This document shows, piece after piece, positions 13,401-38,021 of a stretch of 43,751 nucleotides of DNA. The notes beneath the pieces were generated by a model. It had not been told where the DNA came from, did not search any database, and saw only the letters and a list, made by a program, of their open reading frames with translations. A program made the translations under genes and the position numbers. Numbering within the stretch: the first letter of the stretch is position 1; each line of letters starts with the position of its first letter. The stretch is from a virus: the IMG/VR virus record IMGVR_UViG_3300036832_000251, positions 1 to 43,751 of that record; one strand, written 5' to 3'.

Positions 13401-13654
13401 ACGTGCGCGATCTCGAATCATCTCTTGAGATGGTTAAGCAGCTTCGCGGCATTCGCTTTAAGTCCGAGCATTCGGGGACCGAGAAGATTGGTGTAATTGC
13501 CCAAGAAATCGAGCAACACTTGCCCGAACTTGTTGACGAGCATCTTCTTCCCGGAGAGAATGTGCCGAATAAAACCGTTGACTACATCGGGCTGATTCCG
13601 TTGTTGATTGAGGCAGTCAAAGAACTTTCGGCGAAAGTAGATGGGATGGTGTGA
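10433..13654 (+). CDS. Tail fibre/spike protein with collagen-like stretch and C-terminal S74 chaperone
   Basis: This 1073-residue protein starts at ATG 10433, overlapping the hub stop by four bases. Residues 1-135 look like a gpV/gp5-type OB domain ([15 protein letters not shown]). Residues 260-340 are collagen-like Gly-X-Y repeats. The body carries at least six copies of a DTNLYR-containing unit of the form AAxxLKTDGxF. The last 93 residues match the peptidase S74 intramolecular chaperone ([35 protein letters not shown]), with the Ser-Lys pair in place. The chaperone should trimerise the fibre and cut itself off. A low-GC patch (12961-13140, 41% by hand count) suggests a recombined part. 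Confidence 0.87.
11218..11449 (+). repeat. Collagen-like Gly-X-Y coding repeat
   Basis: The stretch encodes about 27 consecutive Gly-X-Y triplets rich in Gly-Pro and Gly-Thr within the fibre gene. At the DNA level it appears as repeated GGCCC and ACCGG words. It should form a triple helix between the OB-like domain and the shaft. Confidence 0.9.
11591..12935 (+). repeat. DTNLYR fibre-shaft repeats
   Basis: At least six units in the fibre contain the words DTNLYR and LKTDG (or close variants), beginning at about 11591, 11850, 11980, 12100, 12419 and 12888. Two more divergent units lie between them (DSYIQR and DSVLYR). The matching DNA word is gacac(a/g)aatctcta. Spacing varies, which fits a trimeric beta shaft with inserted variable parts. 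Confidence 0.85.
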
Positions 13655-16243: not shown

Positions 16244-16801
16244 ATGCTAGCAACGGCCAGGAGAGCGATTCAGTACCCGAACCCGGATCGTTCCGACCGG
16301 GCTGACATGGCTCTTCACATCGGCAATCTCGCGGCTCCGCTCGATCTCGATGTCATCTACAACCAGGGCACCGACGCGCAGCGGATCGCGGCAGCGCATC
16401 AGACGGGCGGCGGTCGCTTCTGGTGGGCGACGGATACGCTGCTGATGTGGTACGACGACGGAACGACTTGGCGCCAGGTTCAGACGCCGCAGCTTTCTCT
16501 TCCCAACACGCAAGTCGCGAACTACACGCTCGTGATCGCGGACTCGACCAAGACGGTCGAAATGAACGTCGCCAGTGCCAACACTCTGACGGTTCCGACG
16601 AACACCGCTGTCGGCTTCGCGGTTGGGACGACGATGAACATCGCTCAGGTCGGCGCGGGGCAGACGACCATCGCGCCGGCAGCGGGCGTTACGCTCCGCT
16701 CCTACCAGAACATGCTGCGGCTCGCTGGCACGTACGCGCTTTGCTCTTTGATCAAGCGCGGAACCGACGACTGGTGGGTCACCGGGAACTTGGTGCCCTG
16801 A
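16244..16801 (+). CDS. Small minor tail protein, fibre-like
   Basis: This 185-residue protein starts at ATG 16244 after AAGGAGGGAC. A longer reading from 15911 in the same frame would overlap the I-like gene and is rejected. The N-terminal half has MALHIGNLAAPLDLD and GRFWWATDTLLMWYDDGTTWRQ. The C-terminal half has the repeated-strand style LTVPTNTAVGFAVGTTMNIAQ and TTIAPAAGVTLRS, common at the ends of phage tail fibre proteins. It probably attaches a fibre or binds the receptor. The stop overlaps the next ATG by one base. Its exact role is unknown. Confidence 0.72.
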   Translation: MLATARRAIQYPNPDRSDRADMALHIGNLAAPLDLDVIYNQGTDAQRIAAAHQTGGGRFWWATDTLLMWYDDGTTWRQVQTPQLSLPNTQVANYTLVIADSTKTVEMNVASANTLTVPTNTAVGFAVGTTMNIAQVGAGQTTIAPAAGVTLRSYQNMLRLAGTYALCSLIKRGTDDWWVTGNLVP

Positions 16802-18945
16802 TGCCGTACCCGCCGCCGGGGATCATCGACAGCATCGATCAGATCGCGCCGACCGGCGCAATCACCAGCCCCGCACCGGGCAACGTCTCAGGGATCATTA
16901 CTGTCTCGGCTTCCGCGAGCGACTATGATCGGGTCGCCAGTGTACAGTTCCAGATTGACGGGACGAACATCGGCGGGCCGATCTCCGCTGCTCCCTACTC
17001 GGTGAGCTACGACACCCGCGCCCTGCTCAACGGGGCTCATACCTTCTCGGCGATCATCCGGGATCGGGTCGGCAATAGCTTCGTGACGTCACAGGCGGTA
17101 ACGTTCGCCAACGGGCCGGTAGTCTCGATCACAACACCGGGGAATGGCGCGAACGTCTCTGGAGCCATCGGCTGGGGCGCGCAGATTACGTCGTACGATG
17201 CTTCGGTGTCCTCGCAGTTCAAGGTGGACGGAGTCAACTTCGGATCTCCGGTCGCCGGCACCGGAGCGATTCAACAGGCGACCATCGACACCCGTAACTG
17301 GCTCAACGGAGTGCACACCTGGTCGGTTGTCTCGACGGACGGGCACGGGAACTCGACTACTGCGACCATAACTGTCACCCATGTGAACAACCCGTTGATC
17401 ACAATTACGAATCCGGGGAACGGAGTGACAGTCGGAGGCAACGTCGGCTTCACCGCCACCGTCACGTCGTACGACGCCTCGGTCTCAACTCAATTTAAGG
17501 TAGACGGCGGTAACTACGGAGCGCCGATCAGTGGCGCGGGTTCAATCGGTATCGGTAGCGTCGATACTCACCAGTGGCTGAACGGCGGACATACGATCTC
17601 CGCGACCGTGACCGATGGGCACGGGAATGCTGCGGCTGCGAGCATAACGGTGACGTTCGCGAACGCTCCCGTCGTCACCATTACCAGTCCGGGGAACGGA
17701 GCGACGCTCACCGGTGCCTTCAACTTCCTCGCAACCATCACTTCGTACGATGCCTCTGTCTCTACGCAGTTCAAAGTGGATGGTGCTCTCTATAGCTCGG
17801 CGCAGAGCGGAGCCGGGACGCTAGGTTACAACGGCATCGACTCGCGCAACTGGCTGAACGGAGCGCATACGCTCTCGGTGACTTCGACAGACGGTCACGG
17901 GAACACGACGACTGCGAGCATCTCGGTCACGAATCTGAACAACCCGGTTGTTCAGATCACGAGTCCGGGGAACGGCGCTACCATTAACGGCGTCATCAAC
18001 TTCACCGTGAGCGTTACGTCCTACGACGCAACGGTGTCGAGTCAGCTCAAGATCGACGGTGCGAACTTCGGAGCGGCGCAAAGCGGGGCAGGCAGCAAGA
18101 CGCTCTCTGTCGATACCCGGAGCTACCTGAACGGGAACCACACGTACGCGGTGACGACGACGGATGGGCACGGGAACGTCGCGAACGCGAGCCTCACCGT
18201 GAACCACGAGAATGCGCCGGTTGTGACGATCACGAGTCCCGGCAGCGGAGCGACCATCAACGGTAACTTCGCGCTGACCGCGACCGTCACGATGTACGAC
18301 GCCTCCTGTTCTACGCAGTTCAAGATCGACGGGAACAACTACGGCGCGGCGCAGGGTGGTGGTGGTGGTCTCGGGTTCGGGTCTATCGACTCGCACACCT
18401 TGGCTGGCGGCGGGCACACGATGAGTGTTACCTCGACCGATGGACACGGGAACACCGCGACGGCGAGCGTCAGCGTAACGGTCGGCAATGGCGTACCGGG
18501 CGGCGGGAAGATCACTCTGAACTCGATGATGCAGTGGGATGGGGATCAGTTCTATGTCGAGCGCATCAACGTATCTAGCTTTGATGATAGGTACAACACC
18601 GGTCATATGATCTGGCAGGCGACTGGCGACCTGACCACTCCGATCTACTTGCCAGGCAATCCCGACCCAACGCACTACCAGATGTACATCATCACGAACA
18701 CAGATTACACCGAAGTTGGTACCGACGGCAACGTCGTCTATCTCGATCTGATGCTTGACGGTGGCAGGTATCAGTACTGGCAGAACGGCCCGCTCTACGG
18801 CGACTCAGGATCAGTGATCGCGGTCGGCGGCGGAAATGCTGTCTTGTTCGAGTTGTATGCCTCGGTTCCTGGAGGCAACAACTGCTTCATCCAGGGGGTC
18901 GGCGTCCGCTACTGGTTCGGCCTCAAGTCGGGGTACCAGTCATAG
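16801..18945 (+). CDS. Ig-like repeat tail adhesin
   Basis: This 714-residue protein starts at ATG 16801 (TGATG overlap). A reading from further upstream would run through the previous gene and is rejected. After a short N-terminus there are six Ig-like units of about 92 residues. Each opens with a variant of APVVTITSPGNGAT, continues with TSYDASVSTQFKVDG and NWLNGAHTLSVTSTDGHGN, and ends with a beta strand before the next unit. The first unit is divergent. The C-terminal 155 residues, from GKITLNSMMQWDG, are a different domain with many aromatic residues that may bind the receptor. Such extended Ig-like proteins on tails or capsids are thought to bind surface glycans. It is probably a tail tip adhesin. 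Confidence 0.83.
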   Translation: MPYPPPGIIDSIDQIAPTGAITSPAPGNVSGIITVSASASDYDRVASVQFQIDGTNIGGPISAAPYSVSYDTRALLNGAHTFSAIIRDRVGNSFVTSQAVTFANGPVVSITTPGNGANVSGAIGWGAQITSYDASVSSQFKVDGVNFGSPVAGTGAIQQATIDTRNWLNGVHTWSVVSTDGHGNSTTATITVTHVNNPLITITNPGNGVTVGGNVGFTATVTSYDASVSTQFKVDGGNYGAPISGAGSIGIGSVDTHQWLNGGHTISATVTDGHGNAAAASITVTFANAPVVTITSPGNGATLTGAFNFLATITSYDASVSTQFKVDGALYSSAQSGAGTLGYNGIDSRNWLNGAHTLSVTSTDGHGNTTTASISVTNLNNPVVQITSPGNGATINGVINFTVSVTSYDATVSSQLKIDGANFGAAQSGAGSKTLSVDTRSYLNGNHTYAVTTTDGHGNVANASLTVNHENAPVVTITSPGSGATINGNFALTATVTMYDASCSTQFKIDGNNYGAAQGGGGGLGFGSIDSHTLAGGGHTMSVTSTDGHGNTATASVSVTVGNGVPGGGKITLNSMMQWDGDQFYVERINVSSFDDRYNTGHMIWQATGDLTTPIYLPGNPDPTHYQMYIITNTDYTEVGTDGNVVYLDLMLDGGRYQYWQNGPLYGDSGSVIAVGGGNAVLFELYASVPGGNNCFIQGVGVRYWFGLKSGYQS
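16840..18485 (+). repeat. Six tandem Ig-like domain repeats
   Basis: Tandem DNA units of about 275-280 bp encode Ig-like domains of the adhesin. Units begin near 16840 (divergent), 17115, 17390, 17665, 17940 and 18215. The word GGNGAY-type loop (SPGNGA or similar) and DGHGN recur once per unit. Unit 6 carries a Gly-rich insertion. Confidence 0.85.
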
Positions 18946-20894: not shown

Positions 20895-21145
20895 AGGTTC
20901 TTGATCTTCCTTTCTCGCGCCAAGATGCGCTTCTGGACTTCACTGACCTTCGCCTTCAACTCTGCTCTCTCGTCGTTGGTGAGCCGCCGCGCTCGTAGCC
21001 GAGCAAACTCGTCCGCCCGGACTTCCTTGCGCAGCTGCTCTGGATCAACCATGGAGCAGAGCGCCCACCAGCGTCGGTTCCGTACATGGAACTTGAGTAC
21101 GTCCCAATCCTTGTACTCCTTACTTCGTCTCGCGAGTGATGGCAT
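20891..21145 (-). CDS. Small basic hypothetical protein
   Basis: This 84-residue basic protein starts at ATG 21145 after AGGAGCAAG, and overlaps the thyX end by 26 bases. It has RRSKEYKDWDVLKFHVRNRRWWALC and a C-terminal helix (LTNDERAELKAKVSEVQKRIL) that could form a coiled coil. No family is recognised. It is translationally coupled to the small zinc-ribbon gene that follows. Confidence 0.65.
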   Translation of the reverse strand: MPSLARRSKEYKDWDVLKFHVRNRRWWALCSMVDPEQLRKEVRADEFARLRARRLTNDERAELKAKVSEVQKRILARERKIKNL

Positions 21146-22076
21146 GATGCTTGCTCCTGAATGTCCGATTGCTTTCGCGGGCCCAGGGGAATGGGCATTG
21201 ACCCTCGACGCTTTCCCATCCCTGGAAGGTACAGGCGTGCGAATGCTTACCGTTCGCCAGTTGCGGGTCGTCGCGTTCGGCTTCGGTCATGTCGAGCGAG
21301 CCGGTCGTCTTCTCGCAGCTGATTTTGATGTAGGGATCGAGCCAGGGGTAGAGACCAACGAGGATGTCGCGGGCCATCCGCATAACGGTAACGATCTCCC
21401 AGGAGAACATCGCGCAGCCTCGGTAGGCATAGACATTGATGAACTCCCGGAGCGGATACTCCATCATGATGTAGTTCGTCGTGCCTTCCGGCAAGATGTA
21501 GCGGGCGTCCTGGTAGCTGATGTCTGCGGCGCAAGCAAGCTGGTACGCGCGCCGGCATGACTCGACAGCGGCGATCCAGGCCTCCTTGACTTCGTCGCTC
21601 GCGAGCCAGATCGCTTCGGGCCAGCGCTGCTCCGGCCCAGAGCCGTAGAAGCTCGCCCGCTGCGACTGTTGGTGATACGCCGCTTTGCGGGTACGGACGA
21701 TCTGATGAGTACAGGTACGACTAACGCCGCTCACTTCGAACACGATCACCTGGCTTTCGAGCGCCGTCTGCAATCCTCCTTGCAACATCTCTTCCCAGTC
21801 ACGTGAGTCCTCATCAGGGCCATACAGGTCGATACCGATGGTCGCTCTTTGCGCCTTGGACAGTACCTTCATGAACTCGGGGTTCAGCCCTTGAACGAGT
21901 TTAACGGTGATGCCGTCGTCGCCCACTTGGACAAGGTCATTGTCGGAAGGAGAGAGATGGTGACCATCGTTCATGCTGTGTCTGTTGAACGCTACGTCTC
22001 TGAGCAAGGACGATTCACGCTTGTCCGTCCAACCTCTTGACGCTTTGTACGGTTCCGGTACACGAGGGTCTAACAT
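21120..22076 (-). CDS. thyX: Flavin-dependent thymidylate synthase (ThyX)
   Basis: This 318-residue protein is a ThyX, which makes dTMP from dUMP using FAD, NADPH and methylene-tetrahydrofolate. The signature usually written RHRxxSxxxxSxR appears as RTRKAAYHQQSQR, so His is replaced by Thr and the first Ser by Ala, while both Arg and the last Ser are kept. The later conserved block has DARYILPEGTTNYIMMEYPLREFINVYAYRGCAMFSWEI. The C-terminus (about residues 245-318) is longer than in many ThyX proteins and holds two Cys (HACTFQGW, EGQCPF). A start at ATG 22076 follows AAGGGAGCG. The gene follows an HNH nuclease by one base. Confidence 0.88.
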   Translation of the reverse strand: MLDPRVPEPYKASRGWTDKRESSLLRDVAFNRHSMNDGHHLSPSDNDLVQVGDDGITVKLVQGLNPEFMKVLSKAQRATIGIDLYGPDEDSRDWEEMLQGGLQTALESQVIVFEVSGVSRTCTHQIVRTRKAAYHQQSQRASFYGSGPEQRWPEAIWLASDEVKEAWIAAVESCRRAYQLACAADISYQDARYILPEGTTNYIMMEYPLREFINVYAYRGCAMFSWEIVTVMRMARDILVGLYPWLDPYIKISCEKTTGSLDMTEAERDDPQLANGKHSHACTFQGWESVEGQCPFPWARESNRTFRSKHHAITRETK

Positions 22077-22077
22077 G

Positions 22078-22461
22078 CTACGCTCCCTTCGCGAATAGCT
22101 TTCGCATCCTGATGCTCATATGATGACTAGCATGGCACCCTCTGTGACATGCGCGAAGATTATCAGGATGGTCGTTCGCTTTGTTTTCATCTGAGTGATG
22201 AACTATCACTTCATCCTGTCGGACTCTTCGTAGACAGAAGCAGCAAGTGTATGGGCTACTATGTGTTGCGAAGAAGATCCCTCTTGTCATGCGTCCTTTG
22301 TGGCCAGAAGTGAGGCTGGGGATCGGGGGTCTACGGTTGTGTCCATTGACAAACCTAGTTTGTTCTCCTCTGACCCAGCCTTTCTTCGAGCTTCCTTGCC
22401 TAGCGACTGGTGTAGGCAACCCGCAGCCACATTCGCAGAGCTTCTGGGCTGCCATAGCCAT
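22078..22461 (-). CDS. HNH endonuclease between HU-like gene and thyX
   Basis: This 127-residue protein has an N-terminal Cys motif (LCECGCGLPTPV), FVNGHNRR, then CCFCLRRVRQDEVIVHHSDENKANDHPDNLRACHRGCHASHH, which is a clear HNH core with two zinc Cys pairs. The N-terminal motif occurs in several phage HNH proteins. Its ATG at 22461 overlaps the HU-like stop by one base (TAATG), and thyX begins one base after its stop. It looks like a homing endonuclease next to thyX, a gene that often has such insertions nearby. It could instead act in host takeover. Confidence 0.82.
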   Translation of the reverse strand: MAMAAQKLCECGCGLPTPVARQGSSKKGWVRGEQTRFVNGHNRRPPIPSLTSGHKGRMTRGIFFATHSSPYTCCFCLRRVRQDEVIVHHSDENKANDHPDNLRACHRGCHASHHMSIRMRKLFAKGA

Positions 22462-22856
22462 TACGCCGCCTTCGCCGCGGCGGAACGCGCTGCGATAGAC
22501 GCCTTGAACTTCGCTGCGACCTCCTTGCCGCCTTTCGACGCCAGGCTCGGGGCATACGCCTTTGCGAACGACGGGAGGACACGCGCTCGAATGCTTAGCT
22601 TCTCGGGCCGTGCCGTCGCGAGCGGCACCATCTGCCCGAGAGCCGGATTCATCACCATCGTACCCTTCTTCTTTGGAGCCGTGTAGGCGAACTTGAAGAT
22701 CGCGACCTTGCTGATCGCGACTTCGTTGCCCTCCTGGAGATACTCGCCAGCGTACTGGAAGAAGGTATCAACAACCGCCTTCACGTCCAGCCGACTCATC
22801 CCCAGTTCATCCGCGACTTCCTTCACAAGATCGGAAGTTGTGATCTTACCTTCCAT
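22461..22856 (-). CDS. HU/IHF-like DNA-binding protein
   Basis: This 131-residue protein has a full HU/IHF fold: ITTSDLVKEVADELGMSRLDVKAVVDTFFQYAGEYL, then NEVAISKVAIFKFAYTAPKKKGTMVMNPALGQMV, where the Pro-containing arm bends DNA, and a helix after it. The C-terminal 35 residues are Lys/Ala-rich (KFKASIAARSAAAKAA), like actinobacterial HU tails. It probably organises phage DNA or acts at the origin. The start ATG 22856 is preceded by GAGGGAGCG. It lies between the Rpf-like gene and an HNH gene. Confidence 0.88.
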   Translation of the reverse strand: MEGKITTSDLVKEVADELGMSRLDVKAVVDTFFQYAGEYLQEGNEVAISKVAIFKFAYTAPKKKGTMVMNPALGQMVPLATARPEKLSIRARVLPSFAKAYAPSLASKGGKEVAAKFKASIAARSAAAKAA

Positions 22857-27504: not shown

Positions 27505-28153
27505 GTTGCTCCATCCATGAGTGGATTAGCTGTCCAATGTTCGCGACGAACCACTCCATATCGTGCTGATTGTACATCATGTGGATCGCGCGGTTGTAGT
27601 TATTCTTGATGAGGTAGACGCAGCGAAAGCCGATGGCCTTCTCCGCGGCCCAGAACATACCGAGCAGATCGTCTATGACGGCGACGATCCGCCCTGGGTC
27701 TACGCGCTCGACTAGCTGCGCGTACTTGTCCTCATCGAAGAGCATCCCGTCATACTCGATCTCGTGCCGGCGTAGCCACTCGACTGTATCCGGGACGATG
27801 TTGTCGAGCGAGAGGTATGGCCGCGTGGTCGTGACCCAAAGCTCAGCGCCGGTCGCCTTGATCTCGCGACAGAGAGACGCAGCCAGCGGGTAGATCGGCA
27901 TGGTTCGCTTCATACCACCCTGGCGGTAGGCGAGCTTCGCGTCATGCCAATCCTTCTCCGACCGCCCGAACATCTCACACCACCATGTCTTGAATGAGAC
28001 TGAGCCGTCGTAAGAGTAGTTGTTGTCGCTAGGGCCGATGTTGTGGTACTCCGCGGCGAAGCGGAGGAAGTGGCCGTGGTAGTCGCCCAGAGTGCCGTCG
28101 ATGTCTACGGCGACGACCGGCCTGATCGGATTACCGCAGTTGGAGCAGAGCAT
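27479..28153 (-). CDS. HAD-superfamily phosphatase-like protein
   Basis: This 224-residue protein begins at ATG 28153. A longer frame would cover most of the neighbouring oxidoreductase gene and is rejected. HAD motif I is VDIDGTLGD (Asp 17 nucleophile, Asp 19). ELWVTTTRPY provides motif II Thr, and later VAVIDDLLGMF gives a motif IV-like acidic pair. Proteins of this kind in phages include 5'(3')-nucleotidases and kinase-associated phosphatases. An N-terminal CSNCG pair could bind metal. Substrate is unknown, but the neighbours suggest nucleotide metabolism. It overlaps the upstream gene by 23 bases. Confidence 0.78.
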   Translation of the reverse strand: MLCSNCGNPIRPVVAVDIDGTLGDYHGHFLRFAAEYHNIGPSDNNYSYDGSVSFKTWWCEMFGRSEKDWHDAKLAYRQGGMKRTMPIYPLAASLCREIKATGAELWVTTTRPYLSLDNIVPDTVEWLRRHEIEYDGMLFDEDKYAQLVERVDPGRIVAVIDDLLGMFWAAEKAIGFRCVYLIKNNYNRAIHMMYNQHDMEWFVANIGQLIHSWMEQHEPDISQL

Positions 28154-28937
28154 CCTTGACCTGGTTGTAGGTGTGGTGGGTGAAGACGTGCTTGTCCCAG
28201 CGACCAAAGCGGCCGATGCGGACGATCTGTGGGAGACAGTCGCACGTAGTCGAGAGAGGTTTGGTACCCTTATCAACTCGCAATCCTTTCTCTTGCTCCC
28301 CGAACCCCCGCTGGATATAGCTGGGGACGTAGTACGGTGAGTATTCCCAGGACTGGTATCCGTTGATGAGCGAGTATCGGTACCACGGGTCGTATCCATC
28401 CTTGATCGGCAACCCATTGTAGTACATCATATTGACTGGTGATCGTCGCCCGACCTCGGCTCCGTGTAACACCCAGATGGGGATAGACTTGAATATGTGC
28501 CTGGGCTTCTTGCAGAGAACCGTCGCGGGCAACGAGGAGAACGTCATGTCGTGTTCTGCGGCGATCTCTTCGATCCATCGTCTTGTCAACAACCTGTGGT
28601 CGATCCGGTGGCCGTAGAGATTCCAGAGCCTCTCGTACGTCGCGCCGAGACTCCAACCGTACGTCGGCCCGGAGTCAAACTTGTCCCAGGAGACCGGCGC
28701 TTCTGCATCACCATAGACGTTCCTGGCGTACCCTTCGCGGGTGCCTAACTTAACGACCTGGATCTCCATCCTCTCTCCGGGGCAGATGCCAGGGATCGGC
28801 TCATGGAGGTACATCGCGCCGAACATGTGACTCTTCCTCTTCTCTGAGAAGATGGTGAAGTCGATGCCCTCCGTCGCAACGGCATGCGACGCGATTAGAC
28901 CGGCGGGGCCGCAACCGAGGATCGCGACTCGGGTCAA
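28131..28937 (-). CDS. FAD-dependent oxidoreductase-like protein
   Basis: This 268-residue protein opens with a dinucleotide-binding motif (VAILGCGPAGLIASHAV, GxGxxG with Ile/Phe strands and FTIF next to it). The rest has many aromatic residues, CPGERMEIQV, two Cys in TTCDCLPQIV, and ends with IGRFGRWDKHVFTHHTYNQV. It looks like a reduced FAD or NAD(P)-dependent enzyme. The sequence lacks other motifs I recognise. ATG 28937 overlaps the upstream stop by four bases. It may act with ThyX, HAD and methyltransferase genes in nucleotide or DNA modification, which is inference. Confidence 0.72.
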   Translation of the reverse strand: MTRVAILGCGPAGLIASHAVATEGIDFTIFSEKRKSHMFGAMYLHEPIPGICPGERMEIQVVKLGTREGYARNVYGDAEAPVSWDKFDSGPTYGWSLGATYERLWNLYGHRIDHRLLTRRWIEEIAAEHDMTFSSLPATVLCKKPRHIFKSIPIWVLHGAEVGRRSPVNMMYYNGLPIKDGYDPWYRYSLINGYQSWEYSPYYVPSYIQRGFGEQEKGLRVDKGTKPLSTTCDCLPQIVRIGRFGRWDKHVFTHHTYNQVKDALLQLR

Positions 28938-29215
28938 ACGAAGTCCACTTCCAGGGCGATGCCCTTGATGGTCATGATCTTCTGCTTGTCCATGCTCTGT
29001 AGCTGGAAGCTGATCGACTGGAGCGACCCGCTGCCGAGATCTCCAACCACGTCGGTAACGGAGATGATCTTCCAGCCGATGATCTCGATGTTACGCCCGG
29101 TCGAGCGGAGGATTGACTGCTCGATGTCCTGCGCGCCGCCGCCCCAGATCGACTGCGCCGGACTCTCGTCATCCTCGCCGCCCTCGAACCTGACCCTGCT
29201 CTTCTCGTCGTTCAC
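28934..29215 (-). CDS. Small hypothetical protein beside the primase-helicase
   Basis: This 93-residue acidic protein has RVRFEGGEDDES at the N-terminus and a beta-rich middle (ISVTDVVGDLGSGSLQSISFQL) that ends with TIKGIALEVDF. I do not recognise it. Start ATG 29215 overlaps the primase-helicase stop by four bases, and its own stop overlaps the oxidoreductase start. A small replication accessory protein is possible but unsupported. Confidence 0.62.
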   Translation of the reverse strand: MNDEKSRVRFEGGEDDESPAQSIWGGGAQDIEQSILRSTGRNIEIIGWKIISVTDVVGDLGSGSLQSISFQLQSMDKQKIMTIKGIALEVDFV

Positions 29216-31974
29216 CAGCGAACCTCCCTCAGTAGCTCGTGGAGCGTAGGCTCCACGATGTTGTCGCCCCCACCTTCCTTCCGTAGCATCCTCGCGCCGT
29301 AGAGCTTATTGATGATTGAGTTGGCTTCCTCGCGTGTCACGTTCATCACTTCTTCCAGATCTTGCCTCCGAAATCGGCTTGTGCTGCGCAGGAGCTTCGC
29401 CAGGCCGCGCCTCTCCAAGAGGAACCGCCTGACCTCGTCGCGGTGCTCGATAGCTTCCTCGACATCAAGCAGGCGCTCGCGGGAGCGCGCCGCGTAGCCG
29501 AGTGTTGGCATTTCGTAGAGGATGTCAATGAACCGTACGGCATCTTGTACGTGCTCCTTCTGAACGACGATGTTCTCAAAGTTCTGGTCGGTGCTGAATG
29601 TTCGGGCCGCGATAGATACTGCGAGGCGAGCGATCTTGATACGGGCGTTCGCCGCTTGAATGAGCGGCGGATCCTCAACGTACTTATCGCCCATTGCGTT
29701 CGCCTCGTCATAGACTGTGTTCTCCGCGCCCTGCTCCCAAATGATCTGCTCCGGCTGCCGAGTCCAGACCCACATCAGAAGCGTATGGCAGGCTTCGCTC
29801 GTGTACTTGAGGTCGCCTACGTCGATCCGTTTGTTGTACTCCTCGGGATCTACGTCCGACTTGGAGAGGGCCATCGCCAGGTCGAAGCGGGCGATGTCTT
29901 CGGGATTCCCGATCAACGGACGGATCGCATCTACGCCGTACGTGTACTGATCCATTCCGCCATGGCGAGGATTTCCGAGCCAAAGCAGCCGCGTCCGAGC
30001 GAACGTAACCTCCTGTTGGATCTTCGTTAGCCGGGCCATCCCCGACGACCGCACATCGGACATCTTTGAGATCTCCTCAGGGTGGAGGCCGGATAGCTCG
30101 TCGATGATGACGATACGTCGGTCGTTGAGAGGGATAACACCCCAAGTAACGGCCCAATCTCTTCCACCAATCTGTTGCAGGCCTCCAACCAGGCCAGCAA
30201 TAGTTGCCGCTTCTCCTCCGACGACCTCTCCTGCGCCATAGTGGCGTACAAGTCGTTCAGCAGCCTCAGACTTCCCCGTGCGAGTATCTCCAACGATGAG
30301 AGATTCGAGCCATCCTCTGTGGACAAGCTGACCTCCGAAGTTGAACGAGAGCGGCGAATGGAACGTCAGATCCATGACTGCGTGCATCTCAGGGCGTCCG
30401 ATGATCTTCGTCACGTGACTCGCTAACACGCGCTCGATCTCTCCGAGCTTCTTGAGCGGACTCTGGCGATGATGAGGCTGGAATCTCTTCATCAGCTTGA
30501 TTGCCTCGGCTGTCAAGTCAAACCAGTCTACGCTCGTCGTCTGTTGCTGAACGTCCCAGCCGAGAAACTCGTTGCGCTGATCTCGCGGTGAAGGGTAGAG
30601 CGCGCCGGTGACGACGACGGTACTGTTGGCGAGAGTATCGTGGCGACCGACCGACGTGATCTTGATTGTCGTGTAGTCGCGCGCCTTTGTCCCGTCGGCA
30701 TGGTCGATACTCGGGCGAGCGAACAGTTGCTCGACTGCCTGATGATCCTCGACTTCGATCTCAAGCTTGTTACACTTTTGCGCGCCGTACTCCAGACGCA
30801 GCATCTCGCGAATCTGTAGGTCGGACGAGTCGATCATGTCGAGGATCCTCGGGCTAGTCGGCAAGATCACCAGGTCACCTTTTCCTTCGACCGTATTCAT
30901 CGGACAGACCTGGCACTTTGCTCCGGCGTCCTGGGTACAGTTGAGCTTGACCTTCCACGGGATCGAGTAGCCCGGTTCTTTCTTGCCCTTGATCGTTACC
31001 TGGAGCTTGACGGGGTCTCCGACGCGATGCGCGTCGAACGAGTCGAGTACCGTGATGATCGTCGGCTCGCCCTCTGGCTGCTTCTGAAGCGTTTGCGCCT
31101 CGGCTAGAAGACGCTCAAACTCAACTGCGTCAAACTCCTGCCAGAAGTCGCTGAGATCCTTCCCGTGCTTGGGGACGACCTCATATGGCAGCTGGACGAT
31201 CCGAACGTCTGCGATCCTGCTGAGGGCGCGAGCAATCTTCCTCGCCCCCGATTGCCCTTCCTGGTCGCAGTCTTGGCATATGAAGACGAGCTTATCCTTG
31301 AACAACGGGTTCCAGCGATGGTGCCAAGTCTTTGCCCCCGATGTACGAGTGATCGCTGGGTAGCCGTTCTGGATGGTAACGAGCGCGTCCCACTCACCCT
31401 CGCAAATGATGAGGCGCTCGGCTTCCAGTTGGCGGATCGGGTAAAGCTCGGTCACTCTCATCCCCGTTACGGATCGGATCTTGGTATGGGCGTCGGGGTT
31501 CCTGTTGTACCGCCGGACGTTCCAGATCTCGTAGTCAGGGCCGCGGACGGGGATCGTGTAGACTCCGCGACCGCGATCCCAGCCTAGCTCGTAGTCGATG
31601 ATGGTCTTGGTATGGATTCCTCGCTCGTTGAGATAGTCGCTGACGGTCTCATCGTCCAGGAGAGCGGCATTCCACCCCTTGATCTTTCCTTCGGTGATGA
31701 CTTCGTTCGCTTCGCCCCGCCGAGGAGAGCCATTCAACACTGCTCTCCCCGGCGGAACCCAACTGCTCTTCTGGGCGATCAGATCCGTGATCCTTCCCCC
31801 GCCACAGCCAGCGTGACAGAACCACTCGCCGGTCAGAGTATTGACCGACGCCGAGCGGTTCGTATCCTCATGAAGCGGACAGAGCATGTCCCATTCTCCA
31901 TTCACCCTGGCTCGCCCTATCAGGTAGGGTTTGAGTAGGCGTAGGTGTCTCTTTGAGATCGCGGACGCGGCCAC
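29212..31974 (-). CDS. CHC2-TOPRIM primase fused to MCM-like AAA+ helicase
   Basis: This 920-residue protein joins two replication enzymes. The N-terminus has a CHC2 zinc finger (LCPLHEDTN, FCHAGCGGG; Cys 32, His 35, Cys 53, Cys 57) and a TOPRIM domain (IICEGEWDALV with Glu 192; ICQDCDQEG with Asp 235/237), as in DnaG. Residues 300-485 form an OB-like part with CX7CX2C (346/354/357). Residues 530-740 are MCM-like: GDTRTGKSE Walker A (562-570), AGLVGGLQQ, GVIPLNDRRIVIIDELSG (Walker B) and EDIARFDL, which matches the SRFD arginine finger. The C-terminus resembles a winged helix. The start is GTG 31974, twelve bases after the SSB-like gene. Confidence 0.85.
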   Translation of the reverse strand: MAASAISKRHLRLLKPYLIGRARVNGEWDMLCPLHEDTNRSASVNTLTGEWFCHAGCGGGRITDLIAQKSSWVPPGRAVLNGSPRRGEANEVITEGKIKGWNAALLDDETVSDYLNERGIHTKTIIDYELGWDRGRGVYTIPVRGPDYEIWNVRRYNRNPDAHTKIRSVTGMRVTELYPIRQLEAERLIICEGEWDALVTIQNGYPAITRTSGAKTWHHRWNPLFKDKLVFICQDCDQEGQSGARKIARALSRIADVRIVQLPYEVVPKHGKDLSDFWQEFDAVEFERLLAEAQTLQKQPEGEPTIITVLDSFDAHRVGDPVKLQVTIKGKKEPGYSIPWKVKLNCTQDAGAKCQVCPMNTVEGKGDLVILPTSPRILDMIDSSDLQIREMLRLEYGAQKCNKLEIEVEDHQAVEQLFARPSIDHADGTKARDYTTIKITSVGRHDTLANSTVVVTGALYPSPRDQRNEFLGWDVQQQTTSVDWFDLTAEAIKLMKRFQPHHRQSPLKKLGEIERVLASHVTKIIGRPEMHAVMDLTFHSPLSFNFGGQLVHRGWLESLIVGDTRTGKSEAAERLVRHYGAGEVVGGEAATIAGLVGGLQQIGGRDWAVTWGVIPLNDRRIVIIDELSGLHPEEISKMSDVRSSGMARLTKIQQEVTFARTRLLWLGNPRHGGMDQYTYGVDAIRPLIGNPEDIARFDLAMALSKSDVDPEEYNKRIDVGDLKYTSEACHTLLMWVWTRQPEQIIWEQGAENTVYDEANAMGDKYVEDPPLIQAANARIKIARLAVSIAARTFSTDQNFENIVVQKEHVQDAVRFIDILYEMPTLGYAARSRERLLDVEEAIEHRDEVRRFLLERRGLAKLLRSTSRFRRQDLEEVMNVTREEANSIINKLYGARMLRKEGGGDNIVEPTLHELLREVRW

Positions 31975-31986
31975 CGTACTCGCCCG

Positions 31987-33015
31987 CTAGAACGGATCTG
32001 CGACTTTGTCGTCCACCCGGAGGGCTTCGACCATCTTGGCCTTCGTCTTCCTCCCGCTGATCTTGATCTCAGCGCCCTGCTCCAGCCGGGTGTTGATCTC
32101 GTCCTGGAGATCGTTGTCGTCCCACTGGTCGTAGTCGTCCGGCTCGGACGCTTCGCCGTCGCCGTCGCCGCTGGCTTCGCCTGCGCCGTCCTGCCAGGCC
32201 TCTGCCGCCTTCGCGAGCGCGACGATGGCCTCGATGTACTTGGCCTTCGTCTTCCGGCCTTGGACGTTGCCGGCGGCTCCGATGTCGGCCGCGTAACTCG
32301 CCAGGTCATCGGTCTCCCAGTCGCTGTAGTACGCCGCGTCCGTCCGCAGGTCTTCCAGCAACTCCGGGTCGAGCGCGCTGAACCCGTTGGAGTCGGCTGC
32401 GCCCTCGCCCTCGTTGGCGTCGTCCGCGTCCACGGTTGAGTCCTGGTCGTCCAGGATCAGATCGATGGCCTTGCTCGCGGAGAAGCGACCGGAGATCGCG
32501 AGACCACGCGACTCCAACTCCTCCTTCAGATCGTCACTCGACCAGTCGGCCAACTCCTCGCGGGTGAGCGGCTCGTCATCGCCGCCGCTCTCGGGCAGGT
32601 CGTCACCGTCTTCCTCGATCTTGCCCGGCGGGAACAGGTTGCGTGCCCGGCCGCGGTACTCGCCGTCGAGGTTGGTGTCGGCGGTGACCTTGACATTGAC
32701 CGCCTTTCCGACCTGCTTGTTCGTGTCGATGCTGCCCTTCGGCGGGAGCTTGAGCGCGTCGGTCAACTCGCGCAGCTTCCAGCCGTGGGCGGCCTCGTTG
32801 TAGTTCGCGTCTGACGGCAACTTGACGTACGTCCAGAGCAGGGCGTACTCTTCGCCGACGCTAATGGTGATCTCCAGGTCGCTGACGGGATCGCCGCCGG
32901 ACTTCTTGTCCCGCAGCGTCATCGACTGGATCTTGCCCTTGTAGAGACCCGGCTGCGGCTGTTCTCCGCCACCGCCCGCCTCTACGTTGCTGACGTCGTA
33001 CTTGACAACTGCCAC
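31987..33015 (-). CDS. SSB-like OB-fold protein with three SAP-like motifs
   Basis: This 342-residue acidic protein starts at GTG 33015, overlapping the upstream TAG. Residues 1-135 look like an OB-fold DNA-binding domain as in phage SSB-like proteins (YKGKIQSMTLRDKKSGG, DLEITISVGEEY, YRGRARNLFPPGKI). Three SAP-like helix-turn segments follow at about 158-188, 233-266 and 298-333, all opening with Trp and Asp/Glu before LK or DL and ending with a Lys-rich helix such as GRKTKAKMVEAL. Long Asp/Glu/Gly linkers separate them. SAP motifs bind DNA in other proteins. It lies directly before the primase-helicase, so it probably covers single strands or tethers the replisome. Confidence 0.75.
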   Translation of the reverse strand: MAVVKYDVSNVEAGGGGEQPQPGLYKGKIQSMTLRDKKSGGDPVSDLEITISVGEEYALLWTYVKLPSDANYNEAAHGWKLRELTDALKLPPKGSIDTNKQVGKAVNVKVTADTNLDGEYRGRARNLFPPGKIEEDGDDLPESGGDDEPLTREELADWSSDDLKEELESRGLAISGRFSASKAIDLILDDQDSTVDADDANEGEGAADSNGFSALDPELLEDLRTDAAYYSDWETDDLASYAADIGAAGNVQGRKTKAKYIEAIVALAKAAEAWQDGAGEASGDGDGEASEPDDYDQWDDNDLQDEINTRLEQGAEIKISGRKTKAKMVEALRVDDKVADPF

Positions 33016-33824
33016 TATTGCTCCCTTCTCGTTCTGCGTCGCCTCGCCGTGCTGCTTGCTACACGGCCTTTATTGATCTCTGCCATCATACCTGGCAGAG
33101 TAGGATTGACGATCTCGCCGGTTGGGAAGATCGCGAGACCGTCGCGCTTGAACTGACATTTGGCATAGTAGTTCTCGCTCGCGTTGGTATGGAGTACGCG
33201 CACCTGCCGCGTTCTCCCGCCGCGCTCGACTGTCTTGAGGTCGCCGTAGCCGACGATATTCATCATTCCCGAGATCTTCGCGGGCATCATCTTGCCCTGA
33301 ACCCAGGGCCATACGCAGGATGATGTTACGCCGTCGGTCGGCTCCCAGAAGAACGAATGGGCCGTGATGCCGAGGTTAACGACGCCCGCGCCGACCATAT
33401 GGCGAACCCATTGCCCGAGCCGCCACATATTGACTCGGTACTCGCCGCGATCTGGGCCGAATGCTTCCCGCTCTTTACGAGCCTGAGACCCTTTCGGGCC
33501 TTTGCGGTCGAGCGTGTACTCATACACGTCGTCTAGTCCTATGTCTTGGAGCAATGAGATCGAGTCGAGCCAGATCCAGTCCCAGTTCTGTCCCTCGTGT
33601 TGCGCGTACTCCAATGACTCGAAGATCTCCTCCCAGGAGCGCACGACGATCTCTTGGACGCCGCTCCCTACGATGGGGTCAACATGATCGACCGGCGGAC
33701 GTATGAGGAGGATCTTGTAATCCTTCCCGCCCGTTCCGATGAACGTCGTCTTGCCCCATCCGATGTCGGAGTGTATGAGCATGTTGACCTTGCTCGACGC
33801 TCCGGCGGGTTGGATGTTAGGCAC
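33015..33824 (-). CDS. Sak4-like RecA-fold ATPase (recombinase)
   Basis: This 269-residue ATPase has Walker A SDIGWGKTTF near residue 20 and Walker B WIWLDSISLL, plus a glycine-rich region later (VNLGITAHSFFW). It resembles the AAA_24/Sak4 phage recombinases that anneal or recombine single-stranded DNA together with a cognate SSB, which here is the next gene. The C-terminus is basic (RRRRTRREQ). The start is GTG 33824 after GGAGGGAGC, and the stop overlaps the SSB-like start by one base. Confidence 0.8.
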   Translation of the reverse strand: MPNIQPAGASSKVNMLIHSDIGWGKTTFIGTGGKDYKILLIRPPVDHVDPIVGSGVQEIVVRSWEEIFESLEYAQHEGQNWDWIWLDSISLLQDIGLDDVYEYTLDRKGPKGSQARKEREAFGPDRGEYRVNMWRLGQWVRHMVGAGVVNLGITAHSFFWEPTDGVTSSCVWPWVQGKMMPAKISGMMNIVGYGDLKTVERGGRTRQVRVLHTNASENYYAKCQFKRDGLAIFPTGEIVNPTLPGMMAEINKGRVASSTARRRRTRREQ

Positions 33825-33838
33825 GCTCCCTCCTCATT

Positions 33839-34240
33839 TCAACCGTATTGTTCTACGAAATCACGCATATTTGTCCAACAGCCCTGTTGACGCTCGACCA
33901 TTCCCATTCGCCACTTGAAGTGGCGCCAGTCAATATCGCCCTCCTTTACGGCTAAGAGGAACTGGTCAATCGGAATCAGCGGATGACCCAAAGCGTCGAA
34001 CATCTGTAGTGCGCCGTCCCTCTCAAACCATTCTCCGCGAATGGCATAATCGCTTAGCAACTCGTGGATCTCCTGTTCGTGCCCGGCATGCCCGCTAATC
34101 GTCCCATGTAATACCAGATCAAAGGGGCAATATGTTTGGATCGCAGCCAGTCGAGCTTCTGGCGCTCCGCGTGTATGTCCGACCTTGATTGGCCCTTCGA
34201 CCAAGTGGCCTACGAAGTAGACATATCCCAGGAAACTCAT
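33839..34240 (-). CDS. MUG113/T5orf172 GIY-YIG nuclease-like protein
   Basis: This 133-residue protein begins with GYVYFVGHLVEGPIKVGHT, followed by EARLAAIQTY, and has later EIHELLSDYAIRGEWFER. The pattern fits the MUG113/T5orf172 branch of GIY-YIG proteins, which are often small phage nucleases. ATG 34240 overlaps the upstream stop by four bases (ATGA). It lies between the PD-(D/E)XK nuclease and the Sak4-like gene, so it may process DNA in recombination. It could also be a mobile homing enzyme. Activity has not been shown. Confidence 0.75.
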   Translation of the reverse strand: MSFLGYVYFVGHLVEGPIKVGHTRGAPEARLAAIQTYCPFDLVLHGTISGHAGHEQEIHELLSDYAIRGEWFERDGALQMFDALGHPLIPIDQFLLAVKEGDIDWRHFKWRMGMVERQQGCWTNMRDFVEQYG

Positions 34241-35382
34241 TTCGTCTCTCCGACGTAGACCTCATGGGCCTCGTACGGATCCCACGGCTTACTGATCAAG
34301 CCGCGCATTTCCTTCCAGTCTGCGCCGATCTCGTCTAGCTCGCAGAAGTCAAACGCCCAGCAGCCTGGGCAGGTGAACTGACCTTGATTTTTGTACGCGA
34401 CCGGCGGCGGCGATCCGTCTTCCTGCCGGCCGACCGCGCGAATGGCCTGCATGTCCGCGAACTCGGCCAAGACCTGTTCCCGCGCTCGCTCGCGCTCGTT
34501 GAAGTCGCGCCAGATCGGCGTCCGCAGGAAGTACGGTGACGGCTGCTTCTTGGAGACGGAGCCGTCTTTGTTGAGCGAGAATCCGTCGTTGTCCTTCGGT
34601 CTCTCGTCCGGGAACGCCTTACGCAGATGGTTATACATCATCCCGGCGGGCTTCTGGTTGGGCTTGAGCAGACCCTTCTCGTAGATCCAATCGAGTCCCC
34701 AAGTCCAGTAGCCGGTCGCCTGCGAGTCGAGTGAGAGGTATTGAACGTTGATCGCCTTCGCCGTCTTATGATCGACGATGTGGAGCTTCTTGGTGATCCG
34801 GTTCCGCCAGACTCCATCCATCGTCCCGACGTACCAGAACCAAGGCTCGGCGTTCTGCTGCGCCGCTGCGGGATGGTTCGGATCGACCGTCCACGGCTTA
34901 TAGACGAGTTGCTGGAACGTTTGCTCGGTGACGACGACCTCCCATTCGCTGTCGTCGCCGTAGTGCTTGATGTAATGGTTCAGCATCGCCTCGCCGAGAT
35001 CGCCCGCCTCAGCCCAGGTCTCGTCCTGTTCCAGATCATCTACGCGGAAGCCAAACTCGCCCTGCGCCTTGATCTCGGCTTCGTAGTGCTTGGCGAAGCT
35101 CTTAGCCGGATGCGGGCCGCGCTTGATCCCCGGTTTGTAGTAGTCCGCGAGTGCCATATGTACGAGCGTCCCGAACCGGAGAGGAGGCAGATCGTGCTTG
35201 GGGTGGAGAACCTCCTCAAACTCCATCCACCACTTCCAGCGACAGCGCTTAAACGTTCCGCGCTCGCTTGTCCGCAGCATTGGGAGACCGTCTACCGTTG
35301 AGGCACGCGGGTGGCTGGCGCGTCGGCCGACGGTCTCCCGATGCGCGGAGCGTTGTGCTCTCGTCTTGTTGCGAGTTACCAT
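34237..35382 (-). CDS. Fe-S PD-(D/E)XK nuclease (Cas4/RecB-like)
   Basis: This 381-residue protein is a PD-(D/E)XK nuclease. It has RFGTLVHMALADYY, GTMDGVW and HIVDHKTAK (motifs II and III with Asp and Lys), then SQATGYW. Cys 47 (KRCRWKWW) and Cys 338/341/347 (CPGCWAFDFC, C-x2-C-x5-C) fit the Cas4/AddB 4Fe-4S cluster. It probably processes DNA ends during replication or recombination, alongside the Sak4-like gene. The start ATG 35382 is preceded by TAGGAGGGAG. The basic N-terminus (about 30 residues) is an extension. It is the first gene after the non-coding region. Confidence 0.85.
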   Translation of the reverse strand: MVTRNKTRAQRSAHRETVGRRASHPRASTVDGLPMLRTSERGTFKRCRWKWWMEFEEVLHPKHDLPPLRFGTLVHMALADYYKPGIKRGPHPAKSFAKHYEAEIKAQGEFGFRVDDLEQDETWAEAGDLGEAMLNHYIKHYGDDSEWEVVVTEQTFQQLVYKPWTVDPNHPAAAQQNAEPWFWYVGTMDGVWRNRITKKLHIVDHKTAKAINVQYLSLDSQATGYWTWGLDWIYEKGLLKPNQKPAGMMYNHLRKAFPDERPKDNDGFSLNKDGSVSKKQPSPYFLRTPIWRDFNERERAREQVLAEFADMQAIRAVGRQEDGSPPPVAYKNQGQFTCPGCWAFDFCELDEIGADWKEMRGLISKPWDPYEAHEVYVGETK

Positions 35383-35739: not shown

Positions 35740-35952
35740 TCACGGCGGGGGCAACTGGCGCTGCCGACGCCTTGCACTCGATGAGAACCACTTATCAAGG
35801 TCTTCGAGATCCTCTTCATGGATCACTTCGCCCTCGACGTATTCGGGTGCATCGAGTGGCGGGTGGTCTCTTTTCCAGTTGTTCCATCCTGATATCAGCC
35901 CGCAGATCGCTCCGAGCGCCGCCGCTATGTACTCAGCTACGTGGAGAGCCAC
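35740..35952 (-). CDS. Small membrane protein after the SNF2 helicase gene
   Basis: This 70-residue protein starts at GTG 35952, overlapping the helicase stop by 20 bases, after AAAGGCGTATC. A hydrophobic segment (AEYIAAALGAICGLISGW) is followed by an acidic region (EGEVIHEEDLEDLDKW) and a basic end (ARRRQRQLPPP). The layout is that of a small single-span membrane protein. It is the last gene before the terminator. Function is unknown. Confidence 0.6.
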   Translation of the reverse strand: MALHVAEYIAAALGAICGLISGWNNWKRDHPPLDAPEYVEGEVIHEEDLEDLDKWFSSSARRRQRQLPPP

Positions 35953-37723
35953 GATACGCCTTTGCGATCTGCCGTCTGAGATCCAGGATGTTCTTGTTGA
36001 TGTCGAACTTCTCGTCGTTGACCTTCTTGATGTACTGCTCGATGGTTCCGTTGCTGCGATAGACCAGCGCCGTCACCTGGTGGTGACGACTGATATCCAC
36101 CGCTCTGTCGGTCAACTGCGTCTGATCGTCTGGGTTCCAGGTCTCGTCCAGGATATGAACGTCGCTGGCCTTGCTGAGCGTGATTCCGACCCCGGCCGCA
36201 GCCGTCACCAGAACCGCAACTCGCACTTTTCCAGCCTGGAAATCAGCCTGAATCCTGTTGCGCTCCCGCTGATGAACCTTACCAGAGATGATCTCACACG
36301 GTATGCCGTACCGATTGAGATAAGCGTGGATCATCTCCGCGGTCTCGCGGAACTGGCTGGCGACAATCGCTTGGTCGTCGCCGTCAGGATCGTCTACGTC
36401 AATGCCCCGCTCTGCCAAGTTCTGGAGCAGATACGGGATCTTGCCGCATTCCTCAGTCGCCTTGACCTTCATGTTGATGTAGCCGGTCTCCTCGTCTACC
36501 GAGAGAACTTCAACTGTGCACATGTGGTTCGCGAACTGCTTGAGCCGCGTGTACTCAGCCAAGATCGAAGTCGCAGTGAGGTGGTATTCCTCGATGCGAA
36601 CCTCTGCCTGCTCATGGAACGTCCGGTACTGAACCGCTTGCTTATCGGTCATGTCGCACCAAACGTCGATCCACTGAGTATCAGGCATCTGCGGCACGAC
36701 CTCCGAGCGGAGGCGGCGCACCGCGTAAGGAGCAAGGGACTCATAGAAGTCATCCTCCCGTCCAGGGACGATGCTGCCGATGGCCTTATGATTGCCCCAG
36801 GTATTCTCGATGACCAACCACTGAGCCGCCCAACGCCACTTCGACGTGAACTTCTCAGGAGCCAGCCACTGAAGAGCACCAAAGAGCTTCACTGGCTTAC
36901 CGCCCATCGGCGTTCCGCTCAAGCCGAACTTACGCTGGGCCTTCACCTTCTTGGCTTCCTTCGGGAAGCTGTTGCCAGGAACCGGCAGACCAGTCTTGTG
37001 GAACTCGTCAATCGTGAAGCTGTTCCACTCCTTGAGCTGCGGGAACGAGCCGCGCCTGACCATGTTCGCAGTAGTCACGAACCAGAACGGCTTACCATCT
37101 CGCAGACAACGCTCGACGGTTCGCTCAGCCTCGGCTTTCTCCTCTGTTGAGAGGTCGCCCGAGTACGTGACTACGGTGTGGTCTGTCCATCTCTCGATCT
37201 CCATACGCCAGACTGTATCGAGCGTAGACTTGGGTGCCACCACCAGGTGCGGGCCGTCTTCGAGATCACACTCAAAGAGAGCACCGATCACTTCGGTGGT
37301 CTTGCCCAGCCTCGGCTCCAACAGGTTGAGGCAGGAAGTCGTAGACATGAACTTGACGTCGGCTCGCTGGTACGGCCGGAACCACTTGGCTAGCTTCGGG
37401 AGCTTCTTGCTGATCTTCAGTTCCTTGAGCGGCACATCATCGAGTACCGACAAGGTCTTCAGCTTGATCTCCCTCGCAACTTCCTTCCGACCCCAGGCCA
37501 CGAGCGCCGCGCCGAGTTCAAGATTGTTGCCAAACTCTTCCCTCAGACGACGCATGATCACAAGGTCGAGCGGAAGTACCCATAGCGGCCCACCGTTGTT
37601 AGGCCCAACGAACCTCGCCCCGAGAGGCTTGAGTCGGTTCATCGCCGCTACAGCATCTTCGCTGTAGCGGAAATGAACCTCGCAGCGGTCACCGCTTTCG
37701 GTAAGCTCGGCGAACGCCTGCAT
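35933..37723 (-). CDS. SNF2-type superfamily 2 helicase
   Basis: The 596-residue protein starts at ATG 37723 (or ATG 37726) after GAGGAG; a longer frame would overlap the next gene further. It has the SF2/SNF2 motifs: motif I NLLEPRLGKTTEVIG, motif Ia LVVAPKSTLDTVW, motif II FTIDEFHKTG, motif III GLSGTPMGGKP, and in the second domain AIVASQFRETAEMI, VLVTAAAGVGITL and QTQLTDRAVDISR. It translocates on DNA in the family; in phages such proteins take part in replication or recombination. The N-terminal 120 residues are helical and novel to me. A ten-base perfect hairpin lies in the gene just after the start. Confidence 0.88.
   Translation of the reverse strand: MQAFAELTESGDRCEVHFRYSEDAVAAMNRLKPLGARFVGPNNGGPLWVLPLDLVIMRRLREEFGNNLELGAALVAWGRKEVAREIKLKTLSVLDDVPLKELKISKKLPKLAKWFRPYQRADVKFMSTTSCLNLLEPRLGKTTEVIGALFECDLEDGPHLVVAPKSTLDTVWRMEIERWTDHTVVTYSGDLSTEEKAEAERTVERCLRDGKPFWFVTTANMVRRGSFPQLKEWNSFTIDEFHKTGLPVPGNSFPKEAKKVKAQRKFGLSGTPMGGKPVKLFGALQWLAPEKFTSKWRWAAQWLVIENTWGNHKAIGSIVPGREDDFYESLAPYAVRRLRSEVVPQMPDTQWIDVWCDMTDKQAVQYRTFHEQAEVRIEEYHLTATSILAEYTRLKQFANHMCTVEVLSVDEETGYINMKVKATEECGKIPYLLQNLAERGIDVDDPDGDDQAIVASQFRETAEMIHAYLNRYGIPCEIISGKVHQRERNRIQADFQAGKVRVAVLVTAAAGVGITLSKASDVHILDETWNPDDQTQLTDRAVDISRHHQVTALVYRSNGTIEQYIKKVNDEKFDINKNILDLRRQIAKAYRGSPRS
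37645..37670 (-). repeat. Perfect 10-bp hairpin within the helicase gene
   Basis: CCGCTACAGC and GCTGTAGCGG flank a six-base loop, about 17-26 codons after the start of the helicase gene. As an RNA hairpin it could slow translation or be a protein-binding site. It may also be chance within coding sequence. Confidence 0.45.
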
Positions 37724-38021
37724 CATTGCTCCTCGTAGTCGATGGCCTTGTTCCTCTGTAGACGCCGAAGACTTCGCAGCCACGGGCCGCAAACTCCCAG
37801 AAACGATCTGGGTATGGGATCACGACCTGTCGCCTGTGAAGGTTCGACTGTGTCTTGCTCGCCTGACCGGGTGTGTCACAGACTTCGATCAACGCCCACA
37901 CTCCTGGCTTCTTCAGCAGCGGCTGTAGATGGTTAGCCCAACTCATTCCACCGCGTAGATGATTCGGCCCAGGAATGTTGCCGACGAACTCGACACCTGT
38001 TCCTACGTGTTGCTTGGGCAT
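37689..38021 (-). CDS. Hypothetical protein upstream of the helicase
   Basis: The 110-residue protein starts at ATG 38021, which follows a strong AAGGAGGGG ribosome site. A longer frame upstream would run through the tRNA-like element and is rejected. It has VGTGVEFVGNIPGPNHLRGGMSW, KKPGVWALIEVCDTPGQASKTQ, then IPYPDRFWEFAARGCEVFGVYRG and a basic tail. It looks like a small single-domain protein with two or three strands. I do not recognise it. It overlaps the helicase gene by 35 bases. Confidence 0.65.
   Translation of the reverse strand: MPKQHVGTGVEFVGNIPGPNHLRGGMSWANHLQPLLKKPGVWALIEVCDTPGQASKTQSNLHRRQVVIPYPDRFWEFAARGCEVFGVYRGTRPSTTRSNDAGVRRAYRKR

Follow-up and report, generated by a model that had tools for sequence, protein, structure and literature searches.

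What does a viral SSB do with three small repeated modules strung between its OB domain and its C-terminal tip, and with which partner does it work? The question is raised by a gene in an IMG/VR virus record of 43,751 bases, the whole of which was analysed and is called the window here. A first-pass annotation, made from the letters alone, had described the product as SSB-like with three tandem SAP/HeH motifs on acidic linkers, and had placed its ORF correctly; the ORF is on the minus strand, with a GTG start and a product of 342 aa. Annotation of the window with Pfam and PHROG showed that the gene is enclosed by a minus-strand replication and recombination operon (Table 1). The stop codon of the upstream gene, which encodes a Sak4-type annealase, overlaps the SSB start codon by one base (TAGTG), and a purine-rich GAGAAGGGAG lies just ahead of the start codon. 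Downstream, the fusion of a bacterial-type primase (zinc ribbon/Toprim) with an MCM-type AAA+ domain is kept in most of the surveyed loci that carry a Sak4-SSB pair. The operon also includes a small flavoprotein gene; ORFs resembling it come after the primase-MCM gene in L002-L012 (L0xx being the labels of the surveyed loci), and genes annotated as 'oxidoreductase' lie nearby in the phages Wollypog (gp52), Yara (gp50) and Troll4 (gp61).

Table 1. Features of the window and of the SSB gene; residue numbers refer to the SSB protein.
Feature	Coordinates	Strand	Evidence or remark
SNF2-type helicase	35933-37792	-	same operon
PD-(D/E)XK (RecB/Cas4-like) exonuclease, recombination module	34237..35382	-	PF12705 3.2e-9, phrog_1218 7.8e-68
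GIY-YIG-like ORF (T5orf172/MUG113)		-	between exonuclease and Sak4 genes in operon order
Sak4-type annealase (RecA paralogue)	33015..33824	-	adjoins SSB upstream; phrog_124 1.3e-17, AAA_24 1.1e-8
Basic Sak4 C-tail, ARRRRTRREQ	33018-33056	-
SSB gene (DUF669 OB, acidic linkers, three SAP-type modules, SSB-type tip)	31987..33015	-	ORF, Pfam, AlphaFold2 model
DUF669-type OB-fold domain, residues 5-128	32632..33003	-	PF05037 and Foldseek
Acidic linker 1, residues 131-150	32566..32625	-	net charge -8; residues 134-146 pLDDT <50
SAP-type module 1, residues 154-191	32443..32556	-	predicted helices 160-169, 180-196
Disordered linker 2, residues 195-213	32377..32433	-	pLDDT <50
SAP-type module 2, residues 230-266	32185..32328	-	predicted helices 235-244, 257-277
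Disordered linker 3, residues 278-293	32137..32184	-	pLDDT <50
SAP-type module 3, residues 294-336	32008..32136	-	predicted helices 300-312, 325-339
SSB C-terminal tip, DDKVADPF	31990..32013	-	acidic..PF end conserved; equivalent to HK620 NDYPPF
Primase (zinc ribbon/Toprim) fused to MCM-type helicase	29212..31974	-	adjoins SSB downstream; Pfam MCM 2.6e-7, Toprim_2 3.4e-6
Small FAD-binding flavoprotein, replication operon	28131-28937	-	weak FAD_binding_3, 0.0038
Phage-encoded HU-like DNA-binding protein	22461-22856	-	PF00216 2.2e-9
ThyX-type thymidylate synthase	21120-22076	-	PF02511 1.1e-24
Structural protein with at least 4 tandem Big_7 Ig-like domains	16423-18945	+
Tail-fibre-like ORF, collagen-like GPx repeats and repeated 'DTNLYR' segments	10433-13654	+

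The OB-like character proposed for the N-terminus was borne out by PF05037 (DUF669) matches, by the AlphaFold2 model and by a Foldseek comparison. The window protein itself matched PF05037 at 15.8 bits, below the cut-off of 21, and a relative with 67% identity to it (L006) matched at 23.1 bits, above that cut-off; 17 of 48 syntenic SSBs matched at E ≤0.01, the best at 1.3e-10. Residues 23-128 follow the OB-type strand order in the model, and the closest solved fold was that of PrgE (2.6e-6), with RPA and SsbA/B ranking lower. No match to the bacterial SSB family PF00436 appeared at E ≤10 in a Pfam scan of the window protein. The third module is followed directly by an acidic tip, the PF end of which is kept in all seven of the seven close relatives. 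The first-pass annotation had set the modules against the short acidic tails of typical phage SSBs, as if one stood instead of the other; that contrast was wrong in part, because the classical acidic-PF tip is kept after module 3. Given the PF05037 match, the OB fold, the adjacency to sak4 and the acidic PF tip, membership of the window protein in DUF669, a family of Sak4-cognate SSB, is well supported. The conserved tip and the identity of the upstream neighbour as Sak4 are two features that go beyond what the annotation had noticed.

A 'methyltransferase' function, suggested by phrog_9460 (0.017), was considered and rejected, since the protein bearing the matching annotation, P1201 gp69, is itself DUF669-like and lies beside Sak4. 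P1201 gp69 (L009 4731-5351) scored 19.9 bits against the DUF669 cut-off of 21, and it is likely a misannotated SSB.

The repeat segments first placed at about residues 158-188, 233-266 and 298-333 coincide with the three modules, and the motif GRKTKAK said to be shared by two of them occurs at residues 253-259 (module 2) and 321-327 (module 3). When profiles of the modules were compared with each other (hhalign), every pair reached a probability of 92-95%, against 0.1-2% for an OB-domain control. Module 1 of the window matched PF02037 (SAP) at 6.4e-4 (19.7 bits, cut-off 23.9), and no window module passed a Pfam gathering cut-off on its own. Relatives gave stronger matches: module 1 of L011 matched Ish1 at 8.5e-8 (32.9 bits, above the cut-off of 26.6), and the more distant L012, which has the same gene order as the window, has two Pfam SAP domains (1e-16, 60.5 bits). 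To avoid circularity, we excluded the window's clade from a profile that was seeded with the two L012 SAP domains only and iterated on SSBs outside that clade. This left-out profile scored 25.2, 14.4 and 25.5 bits on window modules 1, 2 and 3, compared with a maximum of 9.1 bits on 5,000 shuffled window tails. Close relatives scored 15-36 bits at all three module positions (16.7-26.8 bits for module 2), and among 4,777 six-frame ORFs of all loci only SSBs exceeded 15 bits. Hydrophobic and Gly/Arg/Lys positions are kept in the modules across very diverged SSBs, whereas the linkers are not kept. The net charges of the window modules are -6, -2 and -5; over 95 modules the mean is -3.4, with -3.5 in helix 1 and +0.1 in the loop plus helix 2. 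These comparisons support the view that the three segments are mutually homologous and of SAP type, as far as sequence can tell.

In the AlphaFold2 model of the SSB, which was built on seven close sequences and has a pTM of 0.36, all three modules form helix pairs with a mean pLDDT of about 80-93, separated by disordered linkers; the segments are thus predicted to be neither disordered nor of an unrelated fold. Module 3 modelled alone with 81 sibling modules gave helices at 13-25 and 38-52 (mean pLDDT 82). With the isolated module, Foldseek alone gave nothing beyond weak rows for lysyl-tRNA synthetase (E 5-9), and these candidates were then ranked by VIA-align. The top row was the SAP domain 1h1j (Z 4.1, 2.7 Å, 44 of 44 residues), another SAP structure, 2kvu, was also among the top rows, and some unrelated lysyl-tRNA synthetase rows were nearly tied. 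The low Z of about 4 reflects the small size of the domain (about 45 residues). The predicted fold is supportive of a SAP assignment, not decisive. Profiles, relatives and predicted structure together support the original description of an SSB-like protein with three tandem SAP/HeH motifs.

Because the window SSB matched proteins of named phages only weakly (OB domain only, in Microbacterium phages, best E 0.5), we used Sak4 synteny to find relatives. Searching IMG/VR with an alignment of Sak4 proteins yielded 45 loci, and records of Krampus, TinyMiny, Wollypog, Yara, Hamlet, KatChan, MacGully, P1201, Troll4 and HK620 were added. In the IMG/VR loci the product of the gene after Sak4 is nearly always DUF669-like, with an OB domain and a strongly acidic tail. 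The survey was built on one degenerate Sak4 pattern and so falls short of an unbiased sample of all Sak4 phages; within it, one to four modules were found in 44 of the 50 SSBs of Sak4-SSB pairs, as counted with an in-sample profile and with Troll4 admitted on a 10.7-bit match. Six SSBs have no module, eight have one, 20 have two, 14 have three and two have four. The C-terminus lies 4-13 residues past the last module in 40 of the 44 module-bearing proteins, and 40/50 SSBs end in acidic-P-[F/V/L]. On 48 Sak4-adjacent SSBs, Pfam detected SAP in 25 (best 2.4e-23) and two profiles of the SAP-related group, Ish1 and Rho_N, in 14 and seven. The DUF669 SSB that is cognate to Sak4 and has a tandem SAP tail is thus more general than could be seen from a single locus.

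Among sister SSBs, those that have few modules or none bear Lys/Ala-rich, histone-H1-like tails instead or in addition (L052, L054, L056, L059, Hamlet, KatChan). In L052 (4740-5579), L059 (1602-2435), L054 and L056 the Lys/Ala/Pro-rich H1-like tail ends in ..FPF, and acidic residues mostly come after it. The H1-like tail is an apparent functional replacement of the SAP modules. The family profile matched no sequence in the PDB, and a scan of prokaryote genome contigs confirmed no relative. The open-licence literature that we searched contained no description of a SAP array on a phage SSB; the pairing of DUF669 with Sak4 is published, and in Firmicutes phages Sak4 genes usually adjoin SSB genes, those for DUF669 included (PMC8093625).

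The number of modules varies together with the C-tail of Sak4, both in the window and in the Sak4 genes of L020-L062. This tail, basic in the window, is Arg/Lys-rich in 41 of the 50 pairs (net charge of at least +4 over the final 25 residues), and its charge correlates with the number of modules on the SSB (rho 0.57, p 1.6e-5). The correlation held after independent contrasts on the Sak4 tree (r 0.68, reached in 0/1,000 permutations). Sak4 tail charge was correlated more weakly with SSB tail charge (rho -0.29) than with module number. This co-variation ties the modules to Sak4 function, whether or not the two are in contact, and makes Sak4 a better-supported partner of the SSB than the primase-MCM protein or DnaE.

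We favour, at roughly even odds, a model in which the protein is a Sak4-partner SSB whose tip recruits Sak4 and whose modules provide further contacts with DNA, weak and multivalent, close to where annealing takes place. The part of this model that is well supported comprises the DUF669 OB domain, the SAP tail on acidic linkers, the tip, the coupling to sak4 and the occurrence of zero to four modules in relatives. The first steps follow by homology from phage HK620, whose DUF669 protein is the SSB cognate to Sak4 and needs its final six residues (NDYPPF) both to bring Sak4 to the ssDNA that it has coated and to stimulate annealing (PMC5928155). The OB domain would coat ssDNA, and the PF tip would bring Sak4 onto the coated strand and stimulate annealing. 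The Gly-Arg/Lys-rich loops of the modules may then make weak, multivalent contacts with nearby ss or ds DNA; the SAP domain of SDE2 contacts DNA through its inter-helix loop, and the SAP domains of SDE2 and RAD18 bind DNA at about micromolar affinity and prefer ssDNA (PMC9399289). The conserved loop of the modules sits where known SAP domains touch DNA. The modules could thereby hold the complementary strand or freshly formed duplex nearby during strand pairing by Sak4, a protein that in HK620 is without the C-terminal DNA-binding domain of RecA; the basic Sak4 tail probably binds the acidic SSB tail or the same DNA.

That the modules bind DNA is plausible because the SAP domains of SDE2 and RAD18 do so and because H1-like tails occur in the module-poor or module-free sisters; binding of duplex DNA, raised by the first-pass annotation, is possible. 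The net acidity of the modules argues against strong binding, and the SAP fold can serve protein contacts too, which counts against our model. In a bolder version, which we consider improbable, Sak4 is a RecA core that has lost its DNA-binding C-terminal domain, and the SAP array makes up for this as a second site of DNA binding. The SSB tail and the basic Sak4 tail would then be halves of one annealing machine, split between two proteins that co-evolve, and module number would tune the capture of the complementary strand or duplex. If this were true, the SSB would actively promote pairing, beyond mere protection of ssDNA.

The most serious alternative is that the modules are docking domains for proteins and do not bind DNA: acidic modules and linkers would hold the basic C-tail of Sak4, and perhaps other replication proteins, and so raise the local amount of Sak4 on SSB-coated DNA. 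The net acidity of modules and linkers fits such docking, as do the near-universal adjacency of sak4 and ssb in the survey and the basic tails of 41 of 50 Sak4 proteins, whose charge rises with module number even when the tree is corrected for. Acidity alone, however, would need no folded modules with conserved Gly-Arg/Lys loops; the charge of the SSB tail should also not be a poorer correlate (rho -0.29) than the module count (0.57), and in HK620 the tip alone recruits Sak4 (PMC5928155). We regard docking as a tentative explanation, somewhat unlikely but deserving attention.

The other function initially suggested, in which the modules would tether primase-MCM or the DnaE polymerase to DNA coated with SSB, is not favoured and seems to us very unlikely. 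The primase-MCM gene does come directly after the SSB gene in the window, as it does in most relatives, but the presence of modules tracks neither partner across loci: one to four modules occur where no primase-MCM relative was detectable in limited downstream flanks (L033, L042, L047, Hamlet, KatChan, Yara), the SSBs of L052 and L059 stand beside primase-MCM and have none, and MacGully has DnaE and no module. We give equally little credence to a tail that acts as a spacer, whether passive or autoinhibitory: the modules would be relics that determine how long and how negatively charged it is and that compete with ssDNA for the OB domain, and nothing but the tip would matter. Acidic SSB tails do tune DNA binding, as the Enc34 SSB gains dsDNA binding when its acidic tail is removed (PMC5686142), and a module number that ranges from 0 to 4 would suit a spacer. 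Relics would hardly keep their hydrophobic and Gly/Arg/Lys positions across diverged SSBs in which the linkers are not kept, nor would the last module stay so close to the C-terminus.

Many phages have one to four SAP modules on the SSB tail together with a basic Sak4 tail. This combination offers an explanation, open to testing, of what makes a minimal RecA paralogue, a poor annealer alone, efficient, and the SAP-tail architecture may explain how Sak4 is held on DNA. Acidic Sak4-adjacent phage proteins labelled 'hypothetical', or even 'methyltransferase' as in P1201 gp69, thereby acquire a likely function. The findings could also help in choosing Sak4/SSB pairs for actinobacterial recombineering.

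The closest experimentally studied system is the SSB-Sak4 pair of HK620, the outgroup. Its SSB resembles that of the window in the published DUF669-type OB domain, in adjoining sak4 and in the acidic-PF tip (NDYPPF compared with VADPF). It differs in having 195 aa and no SAP modules, whereas the window protein is about 150 residues longer and carries three, and the HK620 Sak4, unlike that of the window, has no basic tail. That the HK620 pair works without modules counts against a module-based model. PrgE of plasmid pCF10 is the closest solved OB fold and lacks a SAP tail; it is an SSB of likely phage origin that binds ds and ss DNA equally and needs its N-terminal tail for much of this binding (PMC11137577). 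The SAP domains of 1h1j, 2kvu (MKL1), SDE2 and RAD18 share with the window modules the helix-extended loop-helix arrangement and the Gly-Lys/Arg loop. SAP domains, which usually bind DNA, mostly occur as one copy in larger eukaryotic proteins and are not known to be repeated on an SSB tail. The SAP domain of SDE2 acts at replication forks (PMC9399289).

Proteins built most like the window SSB are those of the mycobacteriophage Troll4 (gp60) and the actinophages Krampus (gp46), Wollypog (gp49), TinyMiny (gp50) and Yara (gp59). All have a DUF669-like OB domain, acidic linkers, SAP/Rho_N-like modules and an acidic-PF tip, and adjoin Sak4; they carry one or two modules, fewer than the window protein, and are annotated as 'hypothetical protein'. 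Troll4 gp60 has DUF669, one weak module and a GEDDPF end; M. smegmatis cells that over-express it form filaments and die, and the protein fused to GFP gathers in puncta (PMC7474061). This phenotype, the sole in vivo datum that we found for the architecture, is compatible with a DNA-associated protein. The protein gp45 of Serratia phage Serbin (L066 28821-29792) has an N-terminus that is DUF669-like by eye and position, two SAP/Rho_N-like modules that match the module profile (21.7 and 16.4 bits) and a neighbouring Sak4-like AAA_24 protein with a basic tail. It differs from the window SSB in its non-actinobacterial host, in having no Pfam DUF669 match and in a further small C-terminal domain that replaces the PF tip. 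With Serbin gp45, the SAP-tail architecture probably extends beyond actinophages.
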